Source: Methanomassiliicoccales archaeon
Lineage (GTDB): Archaea; Thermoplasmatota; Thermoplasmata; Methanomassiliicoccales; UBA472
Length of the DNA stretch: 48,094 bases
Direction of reading: 5' to 3'
Assembly (NCBI GenBank): GCA_026394375.1
Contig: JAPKYJ010000016.1
Span: forward strand, 1 to 48,094
Shown here: one piece after another, positions 32,112 to 48,094 of the stretch
Layout: each line of letters begins with the position of its first letter
How positions within the stretch are numbered: position 1 is the stretch's first letter
Notes under the pieces: model-generated
What the model saw: only the letters and a program-made list of their open reading frames with translations
What the model was told of the DNA's origin: nothing
Databases searched by the model: none
Translations under genes and position numbers: made by a program

Positions 32112-36649
<4,538 letters not shown>

Positions 36650-36653
36650 TATC

Positions 36654-37079
36654 ATGCCAGAAGTCACCCTTACCGAAGACACGCTGCGCTACATCTCGCT
36701 GTTCGAGAACATCACCAAGACGCACGTGCGGGACTGCATGGAGACGGAGGAGAAGCTGGTGTTCGTGGTCGATCCCGGCCAGGCCAACCGCGCCGTGGGC
36801 AAGGCGGGAGAGCACGTCATCCGTATGAAGAACACCACCGGGAAGAACATCCAGGTAGTGGAGTATTCGGACGACCCGGAGAATTTCATCCGGAACGTGT
36901 TCTACAACTACAGCGTGCAATCGGTGGTCCTGGAGAACCGGGGCAACATCGTGCATGCCACGGTGACCGTCGACCCGAAGGTCAAAGGACGAGCGATAGG
37001 CAAGAACGGCCGCAACCTGAAGATCGCCCGGGACCTGGTCTGCAGGCATCACAACGTGCAGAGCATCATCGTGGCCTAG
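36654..37079 (+). CDS. nusA: Archaeal NusA-like KH protein
   Basis: A 141-residue protein with two KH domains: DPGQANRAVGKAGEHVIRM with GKNIQVVEYS, and DPKVKGRAIGKNGRNLKIARDL. The bacterial S1 and N-terminal domains are absent, as in other archaeal NusA. It is thought to act in transcription termination or rRNA folding. It ends in TAG and overlaps the convergent radical SAM gene by 14 bases. The usual rps12-rps7-EF genes do not follow. Confidence 0.94.
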   Translation: MPEVTLTEDTLRYISLFENITKTHVRDCMETEEKLVFVVDPGQANRAVGKAGEHVIRMKNTTGKNIQVVEYSDDPENFIRNVFYNYSVQSVVLENRGNIVHATVTVDPKVKGRAIGKNGRNLKIARDLVCRHHNVQSIIVA

Positions 37080-38166
37080 GCCGGCCCTTTCCCCTTTCCT
37101 CTTTTCCAGGCAGTCTCTCGCGCTCGACCTCCAGCCGGTCCGCGGTCGGATACTCTTCGACCAGATACGAATCGTAGGGCAGCTCCGAGGAGATCTCCTC
37201 CAGCACCCAGGGCGCCACCTCCAACCTCCGCTTCTGCCGGTCATGGAAGATGAGCTTCTTTGGGACGTCGTACCGTTGGCGTAGCAGATTCTCCGCCTCC
37301 GTCATCCGCCGGGTCTCGATGACGCCTTTCAACAGTGTCCCTTCCCCCGTGATCAGATCGCCCGGTCGGGCGATGCTTCTCGCCCTCCTCCGTATGCGCC
37401 GTCGCAGCTGGACCGAGTCCTTGAAGGAGGAGGAGCAGTAGTGCACCGGTATCCTCACATCCAGAGCCAGCATGCGTCCCGCGAGCTCCTCGCTTCCTTT
37501 GGCCGCGCTTGAGACATCGTCCTTTATCTCCATTCTTCGGCGCTTCAAGGCCCGGTAGTTCGTCTCCGAGAACTCCAGTTCGTTCAGGTTGATGAAGTCC
37601 AGGCCGATACGCTCTGCGAATCGCACCAATGCCTCCAGCTCCTCCCCCCTGCCAGGGAGGGAGGGGACCTCGACGCCCACGTTCATGCGCAGCCCTTTGA
37701 CTGCTTCCTCCAGACCCGTTCGTTCCATATGCTGCCAGTGCTTGAGAGGGGGGTGTATCCTCAGCTCGTCCAGCCCGCAGCGCTGCAATCGCAAGTATGC
37801 CTTGCGGTCTATTGTAGAGGTATAGAGATGCACATGATGCTCCGGTCCGAAGCTCTTCTTGACCAGGCGGATGTAGTGGCAGACAAGGGACATCTCCCGC
37901 AGCGGATCGCCGCCGGTGATGCCGGTGCCCTTGGCCTTGATCAACCGCGCCTCCAGGAGCACGTCCTCATCGGAAGAGACCTTCATCTCGTCCGCGTAGA
38001 CGACCTTCTTTCCCTTCTTGCCACGCGACAGCGGGCAATAGAAGCAGCCCGATCCGCAGCGCCCGGTGACGAGGAGCACCAGCTTCGCCCCCTGACGGCA
38101 GAGGGTGCACCCCTTCGGAAGCTTGCCAGTATGGGCAGAGCCAGCCTCGAACTCTCGCAGTCTCAT
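37066..38166 (-). CDS. Archaeal radical SAM protein (COG2108-like)
   Basis: A 366-residue protein. The N-terminal C20-x2-C23 pair lies next to the SAM-cluster motif C37-x3-C41-x2-C44 (CGSGCFYC). SAM-binding GITGGDPL, LYTSTIDRKAYL and INLNELEFS segments follow. A helical/basic region (RRRIRRRARSIARPGD) and a C-terminal domain come next. COG2108 is related to pyruvate-formate-lyase activating enzymes; its substrate is unknown. ATG 38166 has AGGGTG close upstream; GTG and TTG alternatives lie 3 and 15 bases further. Confidence 0.8.
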   Translation of the reverse strand: MRLREFEAGSAHTGKLPKGCTLCRQGAKLVLLVTGRCGSGCFYCPLSRGKKGKKVVYADEMKVSSDEDVLLEARLIKAKGTGITGGDPLREMSLVCHYIRLVKKSFGPEHHVHLYTSTIDRKAYLRLQRCGLDELRIHPPLKHWQHMERTGLEEAVKGLRMNVGVEVPSLPGRGEELEALVRFAERIGLDFINLNELEFSETNYRALKRRRMEIKDDVSSAAKGSEELAGRMLALDVRIPVHYCSSSFKDSVQLRRRIRRRARSIARPGDLITGEGTLLKGVIETRRMTEAENLLRQRYDVPKKLIFHDRQKRRLEVAPWVLEEISSELPYDSYLVEEYPTADRLEVERERLPGKEERGKGRPRPR

Positions 38167-38257
38167 CACCCTGGCTACCAACGGCGAGATAGTTAATCGT
38201 GTCGGCCGAGGCTGCGCAACTCATTTATCGCTGGCGCGCATACATCGCCCGAACAAC

Positions 38258-38908
38258 ATGCGCAAAGGCACCAGGGTCATCCTCGCTCTGGACGTGACCG
38301 AGGAGCGGAAGGCGTTGGCGGTAGCGAAGGCCGTGAGAGATCAAGTTGACGGTATCAAGGTCAACTGGCCATTGGTGCTTGCCACGTCGCCGGATATCAT
38401 CACCCGACTGTCGAAGATGGCGCCCGTAATCTGCGACTTCAAGGTGGCAGATATCCCCAACACCAACCGCCTGATCACGGAGCAAGCGAAGCGCCTGGGT
38501 GCGGACGGCCTCATCGTGCATGGTTTCGTCGGCCGGGACTCGGTGCGAGCGGTGGTGGAATCGGCCAGCGACATGCAGGTGTACGTGGTCACGGAGATGA
38601 GCCACCCGGGAGGAAAGGAGTTCACCGCTCCAGTGGCGGAGAAGCTAGCCGCCCTGGCGAAAGAGGAAGGTGCGACCGGCATAATCGCCCCGGCCACCAG
38701 GCCGGGAAGGGTGAGCGAACTCCGCCGCATCGTCGGGGACCTCCTCATACTCTCTCCCGGCGTAGGGGCGCAGGGAGGCAGCGCGGCCGAGGTCATCCGC
38801 AACGGGGCGGACTACGTCATCGCGGGGCGGAGCATCTACGAGGATCGCGATCCGAGGAAGGCGGCGGAACGCCTTGCGGCCGAGGTCCGGCAAGCCCTTC
38901 TCCGTTGA
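38258..38908 (+). CDS. pyrF: Orotidine 5'-phosphate decarboxylase
   Basis: A 216-residue TIM barrel with ILALDVTEE at β1, the catalytic D60-x-K62-x2-D65 (CDFKVADIPNTN), VTEMSHPG and the phosphate-gripping GVGAQGGSAAEVIRNGADYVIAGRSIY. It makes UMP. No ribosome site precedes the ATG and an ATTTAT element lies about 30 bases upstream (38223-38228), consistent with a leaderless mRNA. Confidence 0.95.
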   Translation: MRKGTRVILALDVTEERKALAVAKAVRDQVDGIKVNWPLVLATSPDIITRLSKMAPVICDFKVADIPNTNRLITEQAKRLGADGLIVHGFVGRDSVRAVVESASDMQVYVVTEMSHPGGKEFTAPVAEKLAALAKEEGATGIIAPATRPGRVSELRRIVGDLLILSPGVGAQGGSAAEVIRNGADYVIAGRSIYEDRDPRKAAERLAAEVRQALLR

Positions 38909-38973
38909 GCTTCCGGGGACGATGCGAGCGAATCATCCAGACGATGGGTTTTTTCCCTTCCACTGAAAGAACG

Positions 38974-38982
38974 TATTTATAG
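38974..38982 (+). promoter_or_regulatory. TATA box for the aglB operon
   Basis: TATTTATAG predicts a start near 39003. The leader holds AGGGAG (39012-39017) before ATG 39025. Confidence 0.55.
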
Positions 38983-39024
38983 TGGGTTTGTAATCAACTG
39001 TGCAACTTCCTAGGGAGAAAGTTG

Positions 39025-42000
39025 ATGGCAGAAAAAGAGGGAGGGGCAGGCGACCTCATGGGAGGGAGGCGCCGTGATTTTCTAAGTGGCGCGGGCGCGA
39101 AGCTGCGCGATTCCTGGTTGGCGCGTCACTGGCAGTCGGCGCTGGTCCTCGCATTGATCATTCTCTTGGCCTTCTTCGTACGGAGCTATTTTTCCTATTC
39201 CATCTCTATCGACAACGGCTACCTGGTATCGGGTGGCTCTGACTCTTACTATCACGAGAGAGCTATCGACTACGTCACTTCGACGGGCGAACATCTGTTC
39301 ATGGACCCCATGCTGAACTATCCCTTCGGCATGAGGAACCCCCGTCTGCCGCTCTACGACTGGTCAGTGGCGGTCAGCGGCATGATATTCTCCGCTTTCA
39401 GCGGAGCTCCCGTCGCGGACGGAACGGGCCTGATGCTGGTCCTCTCCACCGCCTTCTGGGGCTCGCTCACGGTCATCCCGGTCTACCTGATAGGCAAGGC
39501 CGCCTTCGGTCGTCGGGCCGGGTTGGTCTCAGGGTTCCTGTTCGCGCTCATGCCTGGACATATCGAGCGAAGCGTCCTGTCCAATGCGGACCACGACTCC
39601 ATGATGCTGTTCTTCGCCGTCTGGGGCTTCTACTTCCTGCTCGAAGCTCTGATCAAGGTCAAAGGGGACCGGTGGGTACAGAGCTACGGCAGTCTCAAGG
39701 GCATCAAGGATGGGCTGCTAGGCTATGTGAAGCTCAATCAGGTCTCGCTCATCTATGCCATGCTGGCTGGGATATGCCTGACGGCCGTCGCGTTCGCCTG
39801 GGAAGGCTACATGTACCTTCTCATCATCATTCTGGTCTACTTCCTCGTCCAGATATTCGTCAACCGTTTCAAGAACATCGATTCGCTGGGCGTGTTCATG
39901 ACCATGACGGTCATGCTGGGCACCCTCTTCATCCTGGCCGCACCGATGTATAGGCAGCTTCTGCTGTGGAACACCTGGTTCGACATGCCCCTGCTGCTCT
40001 TCGCCGGCATGGTGGTGGTCGGGCTCATCTTCGTTCTCACTAGGGATTATCCATGGACGCTGGTGGTGCCGAGCTTCATCATACTGGTGGTGGCCGCTCT
40101 CGCGATCCTGTCGGTGGTAGCGCCCGCCCTCTTCGATGCCATCATCACCGGGCAAGGATACCTGGTGAAGAGCAAGCTCTACTCCACCATCGGCGAGGCG
40201 CAGGCGCCCTCGTTCTCCGTCCTGGCCTTGTCATTCGGCGCTCTGACCTTTTGGCTGGGGTTCGTGGGACTGGTCTGGGCGGCCATCAGGATCCCCAAGA
40301 ACCTCGCTCCCCACTACATATTCCTGGTCGTTTGGATAGGCACGGCGCTGTTCATGGCCATGTCCGCTGGCCGTTTCCTCTTCAACGCCGCTCCGGCCTT
40401 CGCGATATCCGCGGGTTGGATCGTCGTGCTGTTAATCCAAATGGCCAAGTTCGAGGACCTGCCCAAAGGGCTCTCTGGTTTCCGGCTGCGGAATCCCTTG
40501 CTATCCCTGCGTAAGGGCGTCAAGGTGCGCCACATGCTGGGTGCGATCTTCTTGGCCTTCCTCATCATCCTGCCCAACGTCTGGATGGCGGTGGACGCGG
40601 GCATGCCTACGCAGGTCAAGCGCGAATATGACCTGCAGGTCTACGACCACCTACCGCAGATCATGCGGCCAGCGGACTACGACTCCATCAACGGTTCCTA
40701 CTGGTATTTCGGGGCCTTCTCGTACGGTCTGCCCATGCCCAACGATTATTTCCCAGCGGCGTGGAGCTGGCTATCCGAACAAGATAACGACGTCAATCCG
40801 CCCTACGAACGACCGGCCTTCCTGTCCTGGTGGGATTACGGGTTCGAGGCCATCCAGGCAGGGCAGCATCCGACCGTGGCGGACGACTTCCAGAACGGCT
40901 ACAATTTCGCTGGCTCGTTCATCACCTGCACCGATGAGGCGCAGGGAGTGGCCATGCTCGTGACCCTTGCGGTCCAGAAGGGTCAGGCGCCTTCAATGGT
41001 CGTCCAGGTGGACAGCATCCTGGTGGCGCATGGCGTTGACCTGGCCAAAGTGAAGGATATAATGTACAATCCGTCGAAGTACATCTCCATCGTCATGTCC
41101 AACCCCGAGATCTACGGACCGTTCGACATGGACAACACCGTCCCCTCCAGTCGGAACGCCATGTACGTGGCGCTGCGGGTGGAGCTGGCAAAGCTCGGGC
41201 TTGATGAGCTGGCCTCGGTCTATAGCGAGCTCAGGCAGGTCACCGGCGTGGACGTCGGCTACTTCGCGGTCGATACCAGGCTGTTCCCGTTCTCCGCCAC
41301 CAGCGGCAACGTGTTCTATGCCCCGGCGAAGCTCTCGGACAGGCGCATCGACCCGGCGTCCAACGCTCCCATCGACTTCTACAAGATCATGGCGGTGGAC
41401 TCCAACGGCAACCTGGTGGACATAGCGAACATCACCGCGGACATGACCATCATTGACTACCAGATAATCTACAAGGACATGTTCTACGAGAGCATGCTCT
41501 ACCGGGCCTTCATGGGATTCGGGCCGACGGACCTCGGACTGACAACTCAAGGCCTGCCCGGCCTCTCCGGTTCCCTGGCGAGCTATCAGCCCATGCAGGC
41601 CTGGAACATGAGCCACTTCCGCCTGGTCTACAAGACAGCCTACTTCAACCCGTACCCCCGAGAGATGGTGCAGAACCACTCGGAGGCCTGGAGGGCGGTC
41701 TCCTATGAGGAGGCGAAGTCGCTCGAGCAGCAGATCAACGACAAGCTCATAACCGGCGTGGTGGACTATTCGGCATCCACTCTGACGAAGGGCATCGTCT
41801 TCATCCAGTACTACGATGGAGTGATCATCGAAGGAAAGGCGACCACCTCCAGCGGCAATCCGTACCCGGACGCGTACGTTACGGTGCTGGATGAGTATGA
41901 CACACCGCACATGACCGTCAAGACCGATTCGGACGGGCACTATCGCGTCCTCGCCCCCTTCGGCAAGGTCAACGTGGTCTTCTCCACCGGGGAGTTGGAC

Positions 42001-45000
42001 AAGCTTACGCAGATCGCCACCGAGATCGGCCGCAAGACGTTCGACTTCACCTATGACCAGGCGATGCGCAAGCAGGTCGACTCCGACCAGGACGGCATCT
42101 TCGACTACCTCGTCGATGGCAACATCGTGCTTCCGTCGTCGACCGTCAGTGGCGACCTGTTCTGGGACCTGGATGGCAGCGGCGACCTCAACTCCAACGA
42201 CCAGGCGATCGTTGGAGCCAAAGTTGTGCTGCAGAACACCACCACCGGCTTCCGCTTGGAGACCACCTCCACCACCAGTGGATACAGCTTCGCCGGTGTC
42301 CCGCCCATGAACGGAGAAGTATTCGCGGTCGTGGAAGGGCATCAGGGAACCGCCATCACCGTCACCGTGGAATCGAAGCAGGATGTCACGGTCGACATAG
42401 CCATCAAACCGGCAAGCATCGGCGGCAAAGTGGTGTTCGGCGACAACTCCCCTGCCTCGGACCTCCTGCTCCAGCTGCTCGATTCCCAGAACGGCAACCT
42501 GACCGTTCAGTTCACGGGCGAGAGCGGCAGCTTCAACTTCGAGAAGCTTCTGCCAGGTAATTACACACTGCAAACCGGGCAGGATGAGTTCTCCCTCGGC
42601 CAGCAGGTCTTCGCCCTGGGGAACGGAGAGACCGTAACGCGCACATTCACGCTCTACGAGGCCATGAGCGTGTCCGGTCAGATCCTCACTCCGTCCCTGA
42701 CCCCGGCGGCCAATGCCACCGTGGCCCTTCTCTCTTCGAAGACGAAGATATGGACGCAGACCGACTCCCAGGGTCGTTTCCACATCACCGTTCCGTCCGA
42801 TTCCTACACCCTGTTCAGCTTGGCGGTCATCAATGGCAGGGACTATGCGGCCCTTCTGCAGATCCCGGCGACCGTCGGTCAGACCCAGGCGAATCCTACC
42901 CTGAGCTCCGCATTCTACGTGAGCGGCAAGCTGGTGGGAGACGTGTCCTTGGACGGGGTCAAGGTGCAAGCCCAGTCCCGCACCACTGGAGCGAAGCTCA
43001 CCGCGGTGGCGAACTCCACCGGCGAATTCCGCATGTTGCTGCCCTCGGACCTCTACTTCTTCTATGTCGATAGCCAGGTGACCGCCTACTGGAACGACGC
43101 CTTCATAGCCACGGACGCAACCCTGACGCTAAGCCTCGCTCCCTCGGCCAGGATCACCGGCACGGTCTGGTACGATGCCAATGGTGACGGATTGCGCGCC
43201 TCCAGCGAGGGAAGGACGAACGTCACCTTGACCGTGGCGGACGCGGATGGCCGCTCGATCACCACCCTCACCGATAGCACCGGGTACTATAGCCTCAACC
43301 TGGTCCCCAACCGTTACTATACACTGTTGGTGAACGAGAACGGCTACGCCCCGCAGGAGTTCAGCTATTCTCCGCTCACTGGCAACACGCAACAGGACAT
43401 CCAGCTGCTTGCCTACAACCGCACCGTCTCCGGTGTGGTCAGTTATCTAGGTTCGCGCTTGCCGGGTATAACCGTGACCTTCACCTCGACCGGGTCGGGG
43501 GCTCAGACGGCCACCGCTACTTCAGATGGGCTGGGCCGGTTCACCCTCTCCCTGCATCCTGGCAACTACAACGTCGTGGTGGTCCAGAACGCGACCTTTG
43601 GCTCGAACGCCACTCAGTATCAGTCCTCTCAGAGCTTGAGCGTGGAGATCGGCAAGGACCCCTCCGGTCTGGCGATCGACGTGGTCAGGCGCGTGCTGGT
43701 GACCGGTACCCTCACCCCCGAACGGGCGTTCAGCGCCCGGGTGGTCATCAGCGGGCCGGACTCGATGGAGCTGCGGGCCACTACCGACTTCACCACCTAC
43801 CTGCAAGAAGGCACGTACGAAGTATACGCGAGCCAAGAGCGGTTCGCCAGCCGGTTCGCCAGCCTAGGCAGCTATGTCGTATCGCCCAGCTCGAACACCA
43901 TCACCATCAATACCGAGCAGGCGTACACCGTTTCCGGCAGCATCTACTACGAGGGCTCGCGCCTCATGAACCCGGCCTCGGTGAAGATCACCAAGAGCAC
44001 GGGTGGAAGTTACACTCTGCAAAGCACGCTCGCGGGCACGTTCACGCTGAACTTGCCAGCTGGTACGTACAACATCACTACCGATGCGCGCTCGAAACAG
44101 TATTTGGACACCCAGACCGAACGATACTTCCGCTACCTGGGCTACCTGGACTTCGACCTGACGGCCAACAAGGACGTGACCGTGAATGTCAAGAGGATCC
44201 TCGACAACACCAGCGTCATAGGTCAGGTCATCTTCGGCGATGTGCCAGTGGCCGCCCAGCTGCAATTCGTGGCCACATCGTTAACGGCCGTGAACGCCAC
44301 AGCGGAAGCGAGCTCGTCCGGCTTCAATTTCGACCTGGCCCCGGGCAACTACAGCGTCTACATCAAGCAGCTGTCCGGCGTGGGCGCGTTCCTGGGCAAG
44401 CTGGATGTGAGGCCTTACGTGGTCGAGTACATCAATTTCACGCTGGTGGCGGGCATACCGTTCTCCGGCGTCACCCTGGTCAACGGCATCCCAGCCTCCG
44501 CCCTGGTTGAGATCTCCAGCCTTGACTATCTTTCATTGCGCAGCGATGCCAGCGGAGGGTTCGAGGTCTACCTGCCTTCTGACCTGTACCAGGTGAAGGC
44601 CACCGCCTCGGGTCAGGAGAGAGGGGTCACGGTCAGCTATGTCTCCGAGCTCGCTCTGAACCTCACCTCTCCCCAAAGCCGCACCATCTCCCTGGTCAAG
44701 GTGCCAAAGCGCTTGGTTTCGGTGCAATGGGACTCCTCGGAGAAGAGGACCATCAACGGCGGGGAGAGCGTGGTCTACAACATCCGCATCGTCAACAAGG
44801 GGAACGTACCGGACACCTATCGCCTGGGCACAGTCGGCTCGACATCGGGATGGACCATGACCCTTTCCGAGTCCACGGTCACCGTGGACTTCGGCCAGCA
44901 GAACTCGCAGCTGGTGACCTTGACCATCACCGCCCCCGTGGGCGCCAAGGTCAGCCATCAGTCGTTGTCGGTGAGGGCTACGAGCACGGAGCTGGCGACG

Positions 45001-45561
45001 ATCACGAACAGCGCGACCGTGGAGGTGGGAATTGCCCCCGTCCACGCCGTCTCGATCACGTACACCAAGCCCCTGACCACCAGCGGTTCCTCCTTCAGTT
45101 ACAGCTTGAGCCTGAAGAACACGGGCAACGTCGACGACAGCTTCCTAGTGAGCGCGGTCAACCTGGCAGGCCTGCAGGACCTGGGCTGGAAGGCCGAGGT
45201 ACGCAGCGGCACGGGAGCCTTCGGCAGCAACGTCACCATCCAGGCGACCGCCGGCAACCAGGTGAGCTTCGAGCTGCGCCTGACGCCGGTGCGCGCCAAT
45301 CCCGAGCCATCGATAACGGTCGTCCTCACGGCCACCTCCGTATCCACTCCCACGGCGAGCACGGTGCTGCCGTTCCAGCCGGAACTGCCGAGGTTCACCA
45401 TCCCCTCCGGAGGCCTGGCGGTCACAGGGGACAAGGTGAACAGCATCATACCCGATGTCCCGGCGGGCACCTTGGTGCTCCTGGGCATGGTGCTGGCGAT
45501 GTTCACCGTGTTCGTGCTCGTCGGCATGCAGAAGGGGGTGTTCCGACGAAGAAAGCGCTGA
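39025..45561 (+). CDS. aglB: Giant AglB/STT3 oligosaccharyltransferase fused to a surface repeat array
   Basis: A 2178-residue protein. Residues 1-925 are an STT3/AglB: the first membrane helix (about 35-55), acidic motifs D73-SYYH and D189-H-D191, about 13 helices, and the catalytic W602-W-D-Y-G606. It transfers lipid-linked glycans to Asn. Residues about 930-1890 form roughly ten tandem carboxypeptidase-regulatory-like β-sandwiches, each opening with a xVxGxV-type strand and holding DSxGxFxxxLPxGxY. One has a DLDGSGDLNSND calcium-like loop. Many N-x-S/T sequons occur. Residues about 1893-2135 are two NEW3-like domains (YNIRIVNKGNVPDTY, YSLSLKNTGNVDDSF). A membrane helix (about 2147-2168) and basic RRRKR end follow. 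Normal archaeal AglB has 800-1000 residues. The frame is open throughout. Confidence 0.9.
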   Translation: MAEKEGGAGDLMGGRRRDFLSGAGAKLRDSWLARHWQSALVLALIILLAFFVRSYFSYSISIDNGYLVSGGSDSYYHERAIDYVTSTGEHLFMDPMLNYPFGMRNPRLPLYDWSVAVSGMIFSAFSGAPVADGTGLMLVLSTAFWGSLTVIPVYLIGKAAFGRRAGLVSGFLFALMPGHIERSVLSNADHDSMMLFFAVWGFYFLLEALIKVKGDRWVQSYGSLKGIKDGLLGYVKLNQVSLIYAMLAGICLTAVAFAWEGYMYLLIIILVYFLVQIFVNRFKNIDSLGVFMTMTVMLGTLFILAAPMYRQLLLWNTWFDMPLLLFAGMVVVGLIFVLTRDYPWTLVVPSFIILVVAALAILSVVAPALFDAIITGQGYLVKSKLYSTIGEAQAPSFSVLALSFGALTFWLGFVGLVWAAIRIPKNLAPHYIFLVVWIGTALFMAMSAGRFLFNAAPAFAISAGWIVVLLIQMAKFEDLPKGLSGFRLRNPLLSLRKGVKVRHMLGAIFLAFLIILPNVWMAVDAGMPTQVKREYDLQVYDHLPQIMRPADYDSINGSYWYFGAFSYGLPMPNDYFPAAWSWLSEQDNDVNPPYERPAFLSWWDYGFEAIQAGQHPTVADDFQNGYNFAGSFITCTDEAQGVAMLVTLAVQKGQAPSMVVQVDSILVAHGVDLAKVKDIMYNPSKYISIVMSNPEIYGPFDMDNTVPSSRNAMYVALRVELAKLGLDELASVYSELRQVTGVDVGYFAVDTRLFPFSATSGNVFYAPAKLSDRRIDPASNAPIDFYKIMAVDSNGNLVDIANITADMTIIDYQIIYKDMFYESMLYRAFMGFGPTDLGLTTQGLPGLSGSLASYQPMQAWNMSHFRLVYKTAYFNPYPREMVQNHSEAWRAVSYEEAKSLEQQINDKLITGVVDYSASTLTKGIVFIQYYDGVIIEGKATTSSGNPYPDAYVTVLDEYDTPHMTVKTDSDGHYRVLAPFGKVNVVFSTGELDKLTQIATEIGRKTFDFTYDQAMRKQVDSDQDGIFDYLVDGNIVLPSSTVSGDLFWDLDGSGDLNSNDQAIVGAKVVLQNTTTGFRLETTSTTSGYSFAGVPPMNGEVFAVVEGHQGTAITVTVESKQDVTVDIAIKPASIGGKVVFGDNSPASDLLLQLLDSQNGNLTVQFTGESGSFNFEKLLPGNYTLQTGQDEFSLGQQVFALGNGETVTRTFTLYEAMSVSGQILTPSLTPAANATVALLSSKTKIWTQTDSQGRFHITVPSDSYTLFSLAVINGRDYAALLQIPATVGQTQANPTLSSAFYVSGKLVGDVSLDGVKVQAQSRTTGAKLTAVANSTGEFRMLLPSDLYFFYVDSQVTAYWNDAFIATDATLTLSLAPSARITGTVWYDANGDGLRASSEGRTNVTLTVADADGRSITTLTDSTGYYSLNLVPNRYYTLLVNENGYAPQEFSYSPLTGNTQQDIQLLAYNRTVSGVVSYLGSRLPGITVTFTSTGSGAQTATATSDGLGRFTLSLHPGNYNVVVVQNATFGSNATQYQSSQSLSVEIGKDPSGLAIDVVRRVLVTGTLTPERAFSARVVISGPDSMELRATTDFTTYLQEGTYEVYASQERFASRFASLGSYVVSPSSNTITINTEQAYTVSGSIYYEGSRLMNPASVKITKSTGGSYTLQSTLAGTFTLNLPAGTYNITTDARSKQYLDTQTERYFRYLGYLDFDLTANKDVTVNVKRILDNTSVIGQVIFGDVPVAAQLQFVATSLTAVNATAEASSSGFNFDLAPGNYSVYIKQLSGVGAFLGKLDVRPYVVEYINFTLVAGIPFSGVTLVNGIPASALVEISSLDYLSLRSDASGGFEVYLPSDLYQVKATASGQERGVTVSYVSELALNLTSPQSRTISLVKVPKRLVSVQWDSSEKRTINGGESVVYNIRIVNKGNVPDTYRLGTVGSTSGWTMTLSESTVTVDFGQQNSQLVTLTITAPVGAKVSHQSLSVRATSTELATITNSATVEVGIAPVHAVSITYTKPLTTSGSSFSYSLSLKNTGNVDDSFLVSAVNLAGLQDLGWKAEVRSGTGAFGSNVTIQATAGNQVSFELRLTPVRANPEPSITVVLTATSVSTPTASTVLPFQPELPRFTIPSGGLAVTGDKVNSIIPDVPAGTLVLLGMVLAMFTVFVLVGMQKGVFRRRKR

Positions 45562-46319
45562 CGGTCGTGCTGATGGCCATCGGCCTGCTAGCGGTGGGCC
45601 TGGTCCCGGCGACCGCCGGGGCGGTGGACATTCCCAATCCCCTCTACGTTTCGGTCGACGGCCCGACGCTCGTCGCCATCAGCGAAACGCACTCCTACAG
45701 CGTCCTGGCACTGGGCGGCCACGGCGCCGACCCGAGCGGCAACTACAGCTTCACTGCCAGAGTGCTAGGTCCGAAGGTGTCGGATGCCGTGGTCTCCCCG
45801 GGCAACGGCGTCAGCAAAGTGGGAACGTTCCTCATCAATCTCACCGCCCCCTCTCAGGCACAGGACATCAGGCTGGAAGTGAACATGACCGCCTATAGCG
45901 CCCTGGGAAGCGACAAGCTGACCAAGGAGCTCACTATCAAAGTGGTGCGGCCCATCGTGCTCACCGCCAAAGTGGTCAACAGCGGCAGCGCGGCCCTGAC
46001 CGGCGTGCCGATCGTCTTCTATTTGGACGACGTCAAAATATTCAACACCACTTTCTCCTTGGATGCCAAGGGCTCTCGCACCATCATCTACAACCTTACG
46101 GCCGAATTGGCGAGCGGCCAGCATTTGGTGCGGGTGGAGCTCGATCCCAGCAACCAGTTCGCTCGTTTCGAGGGCGGCGGCTCGGTATTCACCAAGACCA
46201 TCTACGTTAACGGCCCGGACTACGGCAGCACGGACGCCATCCTCATCCTGCTTCTGGCGATGCTGATGTTCGTCACCTACATCATCTACAAGAGGCCGAA
46301 GCGCAAGCGGAAGAAGTAG
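45546..46319 (+). CDS. Secreted, membrane-anchored CARDB-like surface protein
   Basis: A protein of about 257 residues. The N-terminus (KKALTVVLMAIGLLAVGLVPATAGA) is a classic signal peptide. Two β-sandwich regions follow; the second is CARDB-like (VLTAKVVNSGSAALTGVPIVFYLDDVK to GQHLVRVELDPSNQF). A C-terminal membrane helix (AILILLLAMLMFVTYIIY) and a KRPKRKRKK tail anchor it with the bulk outside the cell. No ATG, GTG or TTG gives the Lys-containing signal start; an ACG at 45546 lies five bases behind GGGGGTG. GTG 45567 or ATG 45573 would lose the positive residues. It overlaps aglB by 16 bases, so expression is coupled. It ends in TAG. Confidence 0.8.
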   Translation, partial: TKKALTVVLMAIGLLAVGLVPATAGAVDIPNPLYVSVDGPTLVAISETHSYSVLALGGHGADPSGNYSFTARVLGPKVSDAVVSPGNGVSKVGTFLINLTAPSQAQDIRLEVNMTAYSALGSDKLTKELTIKVVRPIVLTAKVVNSGSAALTGVPIVFYLDDVKIFNTTFSLDAKGSRTIIYNLTAELASGQHLVRVELDPSNQFARFEGGGSVFTKTIYVNGPDYGSTDAILILLLAMLMFVTYIIYKRPKRKRKK

Positions 46320-46411
46320 TTGGTCCGACGAGCTTCTTCATTCTCTGACCTTTCCTTCCTTGGCAGCTTGGGCCAGGTATCCGTTCCGTCTCTTCGCCCT
46401 TTCCCCGTAAG

Positions 46412-46421
46412 TGTTAAAATA
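46412..46421 (+). promoter_or_regulatory. TATA box for thioredoxin
   Basis: GTTAAAATAG lies about 30-39 bases before the ATG at 46451, which has no ribosome site; a leaderless transcript is likely. The rest of 46320-46411 shows nothing recognisable. Confidence 0.5.
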
Positions 46422-46450
46422 GAGCGCGCTCCCTTCCTTCCCCGATAACG

Positions 46451-46780
46451 ATGTCAGGGCGCATCACCGAGCTGAGCAAGGACGACTTCGACGATTTCGT
46501 TTCAAAGAACCCCAAGGTGGTCATCGACTTCTGGGCCGGCTGGTGCGGCCCCTGTCGGGCCATGGCTCCGATGATCGAACGCTTGGCCGAGCGCTATGCT
46601 GGCAAGGTAGCATTCGCCAAGGTCGACTGCGACAAGAACCCGGAGCTGGTGAAGAGGTTCAGGGTCATGGGCATCCCCACCCTGATGTTCCTGCAGGGCG
46701 GCGAGCATGCTGGCGAGATAGTCGGCCTGGTACCGGACTCGGAGATCGAGGGCAAGCTAAGAGAGGTCTTCTCCGGCTGA
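46451..46780 (+). CDS. trxA: Thioredoxin
   Basis: A 109-residue thioredoxin with active site W31-C32-G-P-C35 (FWAGWCGPCRAMAP), the cis-Pro segment MGIPTLMFLQGGE, and FAKVDCDKNPELVKRF. It is a cytosolic disulfide reductant. Its stop codon abuts that of the convergent translin gene. Confidence 0.95.
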   Translation: MSGRITELSKDDFDDFVSKNPKVVIDFWAGWCGPCRAMAPMIERLAERYAGKVAFAKVDCDKNPELVKRFRVMGIPTLMFLQGGEHAGEIVGLVPDSEIEGKLREVFSG

Positions 46781-47398
46781 TCAGAGCTTGTCGTAGAGAC
46801 GGGTGAGCTTCTCCCCCAGCAGCTTCGAGCTCACCCCCACCGCCACCTCGCCCCGAGTCTTCTCCAGCAGGGAGCGGGCGATGTCCTGCTTGCGGCGGAT
46901 GGCCACGAGCGCATCCGGGAAGTCGAAACGCATGATCACCTGGTACATGTCCTCCATCATCTCCAGGTATCGCAGGGCGTCTTCCATCCGTCCTTCCTTG
47001 AGGGCGTCCAATGCGAACCGGCGGAGCTCGCCGATGCTGTCCGCCAGGCCCATGAGATAAGAGGACATGGGAACGCCGAGTTCCTCGGGCGTAGGCAGGT
47101 CGTCTTCGGACGCTATGCTGACCATGATCGCCGCTTCGGCGAGCTCCTGCATGGCATCCTCCACCATGCCCGAGTGCCAGATGTCCTGGTGGTCGGAGAG
47201 GAGGGAGCGCAGGCGGTTGGCCTCGTCCATGACCTCGTCCAACATCGCTTCTACGTTCTCGCGCTTATGCACCCCGTGCACCACGCTGCCGGAGATACGG
47301 ATTATCGCTCGGGTGGACTTGATGGCGATCTCCCGCACCGTGTCCTTCTCGTCCAGTCGCACCAGGATGCGGTTCGCGATCTCCTCCAAATTCTTCAT
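46781..47398 (-). CDS. Translin family protein (COG2178-like)
   Basis: A 205-residue all-helical protein. It carries the archaeal translin signatures IIRISGSVVHGVHKRE near residue 35, ELGVPMSSYLMGLADSIGELRRFALDAL, and MEDMYQVIMRFDFPDALVAIRRKQDIARSLLEKTRGE. Translins form octameric rings that bind single-stranded RNA or DNA; archaeal members can show RNase activity when acidic residues are kept. It lies 23 bases downstream of purD and is probably co-transcribed. Confidence 0.88.
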   Translation of the reverse strand: MKNLEEIANRILVRLDEKDTVREIAIKSTRAIIRISGSVVHGVHKRENVEAMLDEVMDEANRLRSLLSDHQDIWHSGMVEDAMQELAEAAIMVSIASEDDLPTPEELGVPMSSYLMGLADSIGELRRFALDALKEGRMEDALRYLEMMEDMYQVIMRFDFPDALVAIRRKQDIARSLLEKTRGEVAVGVSSKLLGEKLTRLYDKL

Positions 47399-47421
47399 GA
47401 TGACAGCAAGCCTCCCGTCTG

Positions 47422-48094
47422 CTATAATCGTTTCCTGAGCGCCTGCATGCGCTCCACCTTCTTCTCGATGATCTCTCTCCGTCCGATGTCGTGGCGGACG
47501 TAGATCGCTTCCCCCTTGACGAAGCGCAGGGCGCGCTCGCAGGCCCGTTCCGCTTTCTCGATGCTGTCCTCCACGCCCACCACCGCCACCGCTCTCGAGG
47601 TGCCAGTGAGTATGCGTCCGTTCTCTTCGCTGACTGCGGCGTAGAAAAGGTGGGCGTGCTCTTTCTCTATCCGCTCCTCGTCGACCTCGATCGGCAGCCC
47701 CGCCCTGGCCTCGATGCCATAGCCTTCCGGCACGACGTACTTGCAGACCGTGGCCTTGCGGGCGAAGCGCACCTTCGACGGAGAGATCGATGACGAGGTG
47801 ATGCTCGAGCAGACCTCGGCGAAATCGCTTTCCAGGAGCGGAAGCACGTTCATCGCCTCCGGGTCCCCGAAGCGGGCGTTAAATTCGATCACCTTGGGAC
47901 CGGAGGAAGTGAGCATGAACTGGCCGTATAGCACTCCCTGATAGGGGCAACCTTCCTTGGCCAGGGCGAGGACCGTCCTGCGCATGGTCTCGACGGCGCT
48001 CTCCACCTCCCCCCTCTCCACGAACGGCAGAAGATGATCTTCCGCGGAATACGAGCCCATGCCTCCGGTGTTCGGACCGACGTCGCCTTCGAAA
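47422..48094 (-). CDS. purD: Phosphoribosylamine-glycine ligase (PurD), C-terminal part
   Basis: Partial gene running off the window edge; the visible 223 codons start inside the conserved GDVGPNTGGMGSYS block. ATP-grasp elements are present: GVLYGQFMLTSSGPKVIEFNARFGDPEAMNVLPLL carries the Mg2+-binding Glu and Asn. The C-terminal domain follows (VVPEGYGIEARAG, GRILTGTSRAVAVVGV). It catalyses the second step of purine synthesis. The end seems complete. Confidence 0.94.
   Translation of the reverse strand, partial: FEGDVGPNTGGMGSYSAEDHLLPFVERGEVESAVETMRRTVLALAKEGCPYQGVLYGQFMLTSSGPKVIEFNARFGDPEAMNVLPLLESDFAEVCSSITSSSISPSKVRFARKATVCKYVVPEGYGIEARAGLPIEVDEERIEKEHAHLFYAAVSEENGRILTGTSRAVAVVGVEDSIEKAERACERALRFVKGEAIYVRHDIGRREIIEKKVERMQALRKRL

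Follow-up and report, generated by a model that had tools for sequence, protein, structure and literature searches.

We analysed a 48,094-nucleotide stretch of a Methanomassiliicoccales genome (assembly GCA_026394375.1, contig JAPKYJ010000016.1; hereafter the window) that carries a giant form of aglB, the gene of the archaeal oligosaccharyltransferase (OST), followed by a small gene for a membrane protein, here called the partner. The giant aglB is one open frame at 39022-45561, which may start at TTG 39022 or, as we prefer, at ATG 39025 downstream of GGGAGAAAG, for a product of 2178-2179 amino acids. Residues are numbered from the TTG throughout; the WWDYG motif is thus at residues 603-607, equivalent to 602-606 from the ATG, where it had been correctly placed by the original prediction, an account written from the DNA letters that described a complete AglB catalytic half joined to an extracellular repeat array. 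The features of the locus are collected in Table 1.

The assignment to AglB was borne out by several analyses. Pfam STT3 matched residues 43-468 (3.7e-15), and hydropathy placed 13 transmembrane (TM) helices in the N-terminal half. The AlphaFold2 model of residues 28-1010 (pLDDT 88.6, pTM 0.84; all models were built from the window and locus sequences only) had AfAglB-L of Archaeoglobus fulgidus as its top Foldseek match in the PDB (2.5e-24). The window protein therefore has the GT-C fold with 13 TM helices of the GT66 AglB/STT3 enzymes, and it shares with AfAglB-L (PDB 3WAJ, 5GMY, 7E9S) the D, DxD, TIxE and WWD motifs and the succession of a globular domain and a beta-domain. AfAglB-L differs in being only 875 residues long, with neither a domain array nor a C-terminal TM anchor. 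Residues 41-648 are also homologous to the archaeosortase A system-associated AglB family TIGR04154, whose profile of 831 positions has no array; the score of 205.8 bits does not reach the 450 bits set as the curated cut-off of that family.

The tail is a long array of beta-sandwiches. CarboxypepD_reg matched eight stretches (4.3e-51), SdrD_B, NOMO_5th and other prealbumin-like Pfam models also matched in the tail, and a FixG_C/choice-of-anchor T-like match in Pfam and NCBIfam lay near residues 1918-2059 (NCBIfam choice-of-anchor T over 1941-2059). The AlphaFold2 model of residues 925-2124 was all-beta (pLDDT 88.9), and from its strand order we counted 11 prealbumin-like and two NEW3-like domains, close to the ten or so carboxypeptidase-regulatory-like and two NEW3-like domains first proposed. 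The C-terminal membrane anchor was likewise found by hydropathy, as one TM helix at 2151-2169 followed by KGVFRRRKR. Judged by its sequence, the DxDxSGD-type loop DLDGSGDLNSND, which belongs to an SdrD_B-like domain, probably binds Ca2+. Similar SdrD_B/CarboxypepD_reg beta-sandwiches with probable Ca2+ loops occur in the MSCRAMM/SdrD B-repeat proteins and other prealbumin-like arrays; unlike the giant AglB, MSCRAMM/SdrD proteins are wall-anchored adhesins without an enzyme.

Table 1. Features of the giant aglB locus (window coordinates; residues counted from TTG 39022)
Feature	Coordinates	Strand	Remarks and evidence
aglB, giant oligosaccharyltransferase	39025..45561	+	2178 aa; alternative start TTG 39022; orthologous frame in 59/61 relatives
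13-TM GT-C/STT3 membrane domain	39136..40593	+	aa 39-524; hydropathy, Pfam STT3, AlphaFold2 and Foldseek to AfAglB-L
Catalytic Asp (GGSD)	39241..39243	+	aa 74; counterpart of AfAglB D47; hidden Markov model (HMM) alignment, motif table
Metal-binding D-H-D motif	39589..39597	+	aa 190-192; counterpart of AfAglB D161/H163; HMM alignment, motif table
TIxE motif	40186..40197	+	aa 389-392; counterpart of AfAglB E360; HMM alignment, motif table
Mixed alpha/beta extracellular C-terminal globular domain of AglB	40609..41793	+	aa 530-924; AlphaFold2 secondary structure, Foldseek to AfAglB-L
WWDYG sequon-recognition motif	40828..40842	+	aa 603-607; unchanged in each of the 31 active rows of alignment A4
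First beta-sandwich	41794..42066	+	aa 925-1015; collinear with AfAglB C-terminal beta-domain (771-826), weak in-register HMM alignment; opens short outgroup arrays
About 10 further prealbumin-like/CarboxypepD_reg domains	42067..44706	+	aa 1016-1895; Pfam, AlphaFold2 (pLDDT 88.9)
DxDxSGD-type loop	42166..42201	+	aa 1049-1060; sequence and SdrD_B match; putative Ca2+ site
Two NEW3-like beta-sandwiches	44707..45387	+	aa 1896-2122; Pfam, NCBIfam, AlphaFold2
C-terminal TM helix and cytosolic KGVFRRRKR	45472..45558	+	aa 2151-2179; hydropathy; KGVFxRRK kept through the order
Partner gene	45567..46319	+	about 250 aa; signal peptide, two beta-sandwiches (second CARDB, Pfam), single TM, basic cytosolic tail

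Orthologues were found in nearly all relatives compared (Table 1), in 377 of 400 genomes of the class, in all 29 genomes selected across it and in 243 of 245 genomes of the phylum; most of the taxa sampled were represented by metagenome-assembled genomes. Where frames were not cut by contig ends, they measured mostly 1,830-2,410 residues in Thermoplasmata and from 1,033 to about 3,320 in the rest of the phylum, and the KGVFxRRK C-terminus was conserved throughout the order Methanomassiliicoccales. One Methanomethylophilaceae genome was an outlier in length, with an AglB of 2544 residues that has lost its catalytic motifs (locus L125, genome G238), and AglBs of 3,175 residues in another class of the phylum had a single recognisable CarboxypepD_reg domain (L148, G534). 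The rarity implied by the original prediction was thus mistaken: the giant form is the rule in Thermoplasmata, and versions of 1,000-3,300 residues occur in other classes. Our search of the open-access literature, with subscription papers outside its reach, found no description of the giant form or of its partner.

The same frame and junction were read in many independent assemblies of the class, and the junction between catalytic half and tail was unbroken in dozens of independent genomes, single-contig assemblies included. We therefore rejected misassembly or a chance open frame, for which the unusual length and nothing further speaks, and give it a negligible probability; the junction is ancestral. 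A misassembly at the junction, or relatives with the tail as a separate gene, had been named beforehand as grounds for abandoning the fusion; no misassembly was seen, and in none of the relatives read was the tail separate.

Two observations bear on the origin of the array. In the profile of the N-terminal half, the last beta-sandwich aligned in register with AfAglB 771-826, weakly (-0.5 bits), and outgroup AglBs carry short arrays that start with the same first domain, of about two domains in L150 (1023 residues) and five to six in L149 (1397 residues). On these grounds the array probably grew stepwise, by adding or repeating domains behind the terminal beta-domain of an ordinary AglB; this would be the most economical course, and the direction of change is presumed.

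The window protein keeps D74, D190/D192, E392, R451 and WWDYG. As a single PF02516 locus was found in the source genome, the giant AglB appears to be the sole OST of this archaeon. Motif tables of more than 100 loci, with states read off an automatic alignment and not one by one, showed the catalytic set to be intact across the class save in 25 distinct Methanomethylophilaceae sequences and in locus L044. Some families have a variant DxD region; in L134-L139 (family f22) it reads DGRxHTPE (DGRMHTPE, for example) and the other catalytic motifs are kept, which may reflect either an altered metal site or a locally faulty alignment. Transfer of a lipid-linked glycan to NXT/S sequons by the giant AglB is predicted, with indirect support from the sequon bias described below. 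Of 43 Thermoplasmata genomes searched for PF00953, the GlcNAc-1-P transferase type, 40 lacked it, among them genomes with an active AglB, so the lipid-linked glycan must start in another way. Loss of this lipid-carrier initiation enzyme was accordingly uninformative as a marker of lost glycosylation.

The partner gene adjoins the 3' end of aglB in 88 of 92 testable loci, with a 4-nucleotide overlap in 46 of these 88. The four loci without it are three outgroups of other classes and L035 (genome G007), in which the frame is truncated to 179 residues without a TM helix; its relatives carry the full gene, and the short frame is probably a frameshift or assembly error. A partner profile built on 14 members of the order found every one of the 74 remaining partners at E<1e-3, the 25 rows of the catalytically dead clade among them. 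In whole-genome searches the full-length best match lay beside aglB in genomes of the class and in three outgroups with AglBs of 2,370-2,480 residues, and no full-length partner was found in the short-AglB outgroups tested. Two long AglBs of outgroup lineages, L153 (2743 residues) and L146 (2441 residues), have no separate downstream gene, and their own C-termini matched the CARDB and TM part of the partner profile (3e-9 and 8.6e-5). That a partner-like module is fused to AglB in one lineage and the partner gene linked to aglB in another suggests that the two form one machine.

The partner gene thus stays linked to the gene of the catalytic subunit, as would be expected of an OST accessory subunit. 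The archaeal OST has been described as single-subunit (PMC7226087), and the partner is on genomic grounds a candidate for its first accessory subunit. The pair resembles the multi-subunit eukaryotic OST in combining a catalytic STT3 with a candidate accessory membrane protein that has an extracytosolic beta-domain; it differs in that no match was detected between the partner and eukaryotic OST subunits. The wider gene block in Methanomassiliicoccales (window 34882-48060) reads rpoA2, a nusA-like gene, a radical-SAM gene (-), pyrF, aglB, the partner, a variable thioredoxin gene, a translin-family gene (-) and a purD-like gene (-), and parts of it were also found in other families of the class. 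The thioredoxin gene (46451-46780) was considered as an OST3/6-like subunit and rejected, as it encodes a generic thioredoxin with no signal peptide in its sequence and is missing here in many relatives.

In all sampled Methanomethylophilaceae except one basal genus (25 distinct sequences), every catalytic motif of AglB is missing; WIDYS, for example, stands for WWDYG and SAQYH for SDSYYH. The tree of 91 sequences required two catalytic losses. The second is that of L044 (G026, family f6), an independent loss of most motifs in which WWDYG has become WNGYG and TIxE is gone, GGxD is kept and the partner is retained. The dead copies occupy the same gene neighbourhood as their active orthologues. 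Replacement by a second, active STT3 was rejected, since searches of the dead-clade genomes with PF02516 and with the AglB profile found none. For the dead catalytic half, NG86 ω came to 0.10-0.39, values that active pairs also show or that lie slightly above theirs; in nearly every pair ω was lower than for the tail. The Methanomethylophilaceae copies thus combine lost active-site residues, orthology by synteny and purifying selection, and by these sequence measures they are selected genes, not decaying ones; the window protein keeps its motifs. As both the 13-TM body and the array are kept under selection after catalytic loss, they would have a second, non-catalytic role. The original prediction was right on the AglB assignment, the domain make-up and the topology of the tail; it missed the conserved partner and the dead orthologues, which are the most telling on function.

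Sequon statistics were then compared between active and dead lineages. In active lineages the tail NXS/T ratio of observed to expected, relative to shuffled tails, was 2.20 for the class and 1.57 for the order, with NXT:NXS counts of 955:444 and 304:120, respectively (1259:564 in total). In the dead clade the ratio was 1.24 and the counts were 163:167, though T is commoner than S there. The NXT:NXS shift between active and dead tails gave a Fisher p of 1.4e-11, a value that overstates independence because the rows are related. The partner behaved similarly, with a ratio of 2.65 and 312:84 in active lineages and 1.34 and 38:32 in the dead clade. The window tail on its own has 16 sequons against 12.4 expected from composition, a mild enrichment, so that the description of the tail as dense in sequons is clear across the family only. 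The enrichment and NXT bias in active lineages, mostly gone in the dead clade, are consistent with a tail and a partner that are glycosylated in lineages with an active AglB, and with N-glycosylation having been lost in the dead clade.

Of the roles first suggested for the tail, substrate and scaffold hold up, the former with this indirect support, and an S-layer-like stalk is possible. The same sequon pattern would be expected if the tail were an acceptor or autoregulatory domain only, a glycosylated self-substrate with no scaffold role. We consider this quite improbable, because the tail is under selection in lineages apparently without N-glycosylation.

The persistence of the tail without catalysis would also suit an envelope stalk, whereby the array mainly builds a disordered surface protein layer of S-layer-less cells and has the OST body as its anchor, with catalysis of only incidental importance to it. 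The great length of the tail and its anchors at both ends would suit this too, and the S-layer-less Thermoplasmatales have an unidentified exterior protein layer of about 20 nm (PMC12448462). A surface layer would however require a high copy number, and Methanomethylophilus alvi, of the family that holds the dead clade, shows neither a wall nor an S-layer, and its cells burst in water and in 0.01% sodium dodecyl sulfate (PMC10673518). Moreover, in the dead clade the TM body changes at a lower rate than the tail, a constraint beyond what simple anchoring would call for; the membrane part would thus be more than an anchor. This slow evolution favours, not decisively, a role in secreted-protein biogenesis, with the OST placed at the translocon. 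A pure envelope stalk we regard as rather unlikely by comparison.

A role beside the translocon recalls NOMO, a subunit of the BOS complex in the multipass translocon of the endoplasmic reticulum. NOMO is an array of prealbumin-like domains (PMC11186639), and like the tail it combines these tandem domains with a C-terminal TM anchor. The array could then be an archaeal equivalent of eukaryotic NOMO, or perhaps its ancestor, and would work next to the OST on ribosomes docked at SecYEG. NOMO2 was the best PDB match of the tail profile (1.9e-35), and one window domain scored above the Pfam NOMO_5th cut-off. The matches were however non-collinear, with one profile stretch matching several NOMO domains, as generic repeats would. 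In addition, Foldseek with the tail model returned no whole-array relative and no NOMO among its 50 best matches, which were generic beta-sandwich arrays with TM-scores near 0.1. NOMO itself is not fused to an OST, and Thermoplasmatota are not the archaea closest to eukaryotes. On the non-collinear matches and the Foldseek result we rejected orthology with NOMO. That the tail is NOMO is not supported; that it works like NOMO is possible, and an equivalent or ancestral NOMO module seems to us unlikely.

Our preferred reading, to which we assign a probability of roughly 60%, is that the giant AglB is the only OST of the cell and carries a surface-exposed, glycosylated scaffold with a second, non-catalytic role. 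We infer the mechanism from the architecture, motif state, gene linkage and selection pattern read from the sequences and models. AglB would take a glycan from its lipid carrier and attach it to secreted proteins at NXT/S sequons, with its own array and the partner among the acceptors. The array returns to the membrane through its C-terminal helix and, anchored at both ends, would form with the partner a glycosylated outer-face scaffold tethered to the membrane. This scaffold may keep the enzyme near the envelope or near its clients, secreted proteins that are just being made at the translocon, and the 13-TM body and array would serve a second role that outlives catalysis.

Several points weigh against this reading. 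AglB activity, tail glycosylation and contact between AglB and the partner are all predictions, and co-transcription of the two genes is inferred from overlap and synteny. Saturation affects the NG86 ω values, the sequences behind the sequon counts are related and so not independent, and PF00953 does not tell dead lineages from active ones. Because CARDB is a widespread module, the end matches of L153 and L146 may represent convergent domain use. Finally, the homology of domain 1 to the terminal beta-domain of AglB depends on a weak alignment (-0.5 bits).

Published observations on these archaea are in keeping, as correlations, with a dead clade that no longer carries out N-glycosylation. Methanomassiliicoccus luminyensis has been described with an additional outer layer (PMC4243693), and host-associated Methanomassiliicoccales and gut methanogens tend to have few glycosyltransferases (PMC9723798); these low counts and the envelopes of M. 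alvi and M. luminyensis are in line with such a loss.

A more specific form of the preferred reading, offered tentatively and at less than even odds, is that Thermoplasmata have a two-subunit OST, in which a giant AglB with a NOMO-like array and a CARDB/TM partner form a translocon-side scaffold, and that gut Methanomethylophilaceae keep a non-glycosylating pseudo-oligosaccharyltransferase. If true, this pseudo-oligosaccharyltransferase would show that STT3-type proteins can have a function apart from catalysis. With the class-wide pair of giant AglB and membrane partner, the idea of an archaeal OST accessory subunit can be tested directly, and a family whose OST orthologues are dead yet under selection offers a natural experiment in which catalysis is parted from scaffold function. 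Both bear on the surface organisation of S-layer-less archaea, including their exterior-layer protein (PMC12448462), and on the loss of glycosylation in gut methanogens.

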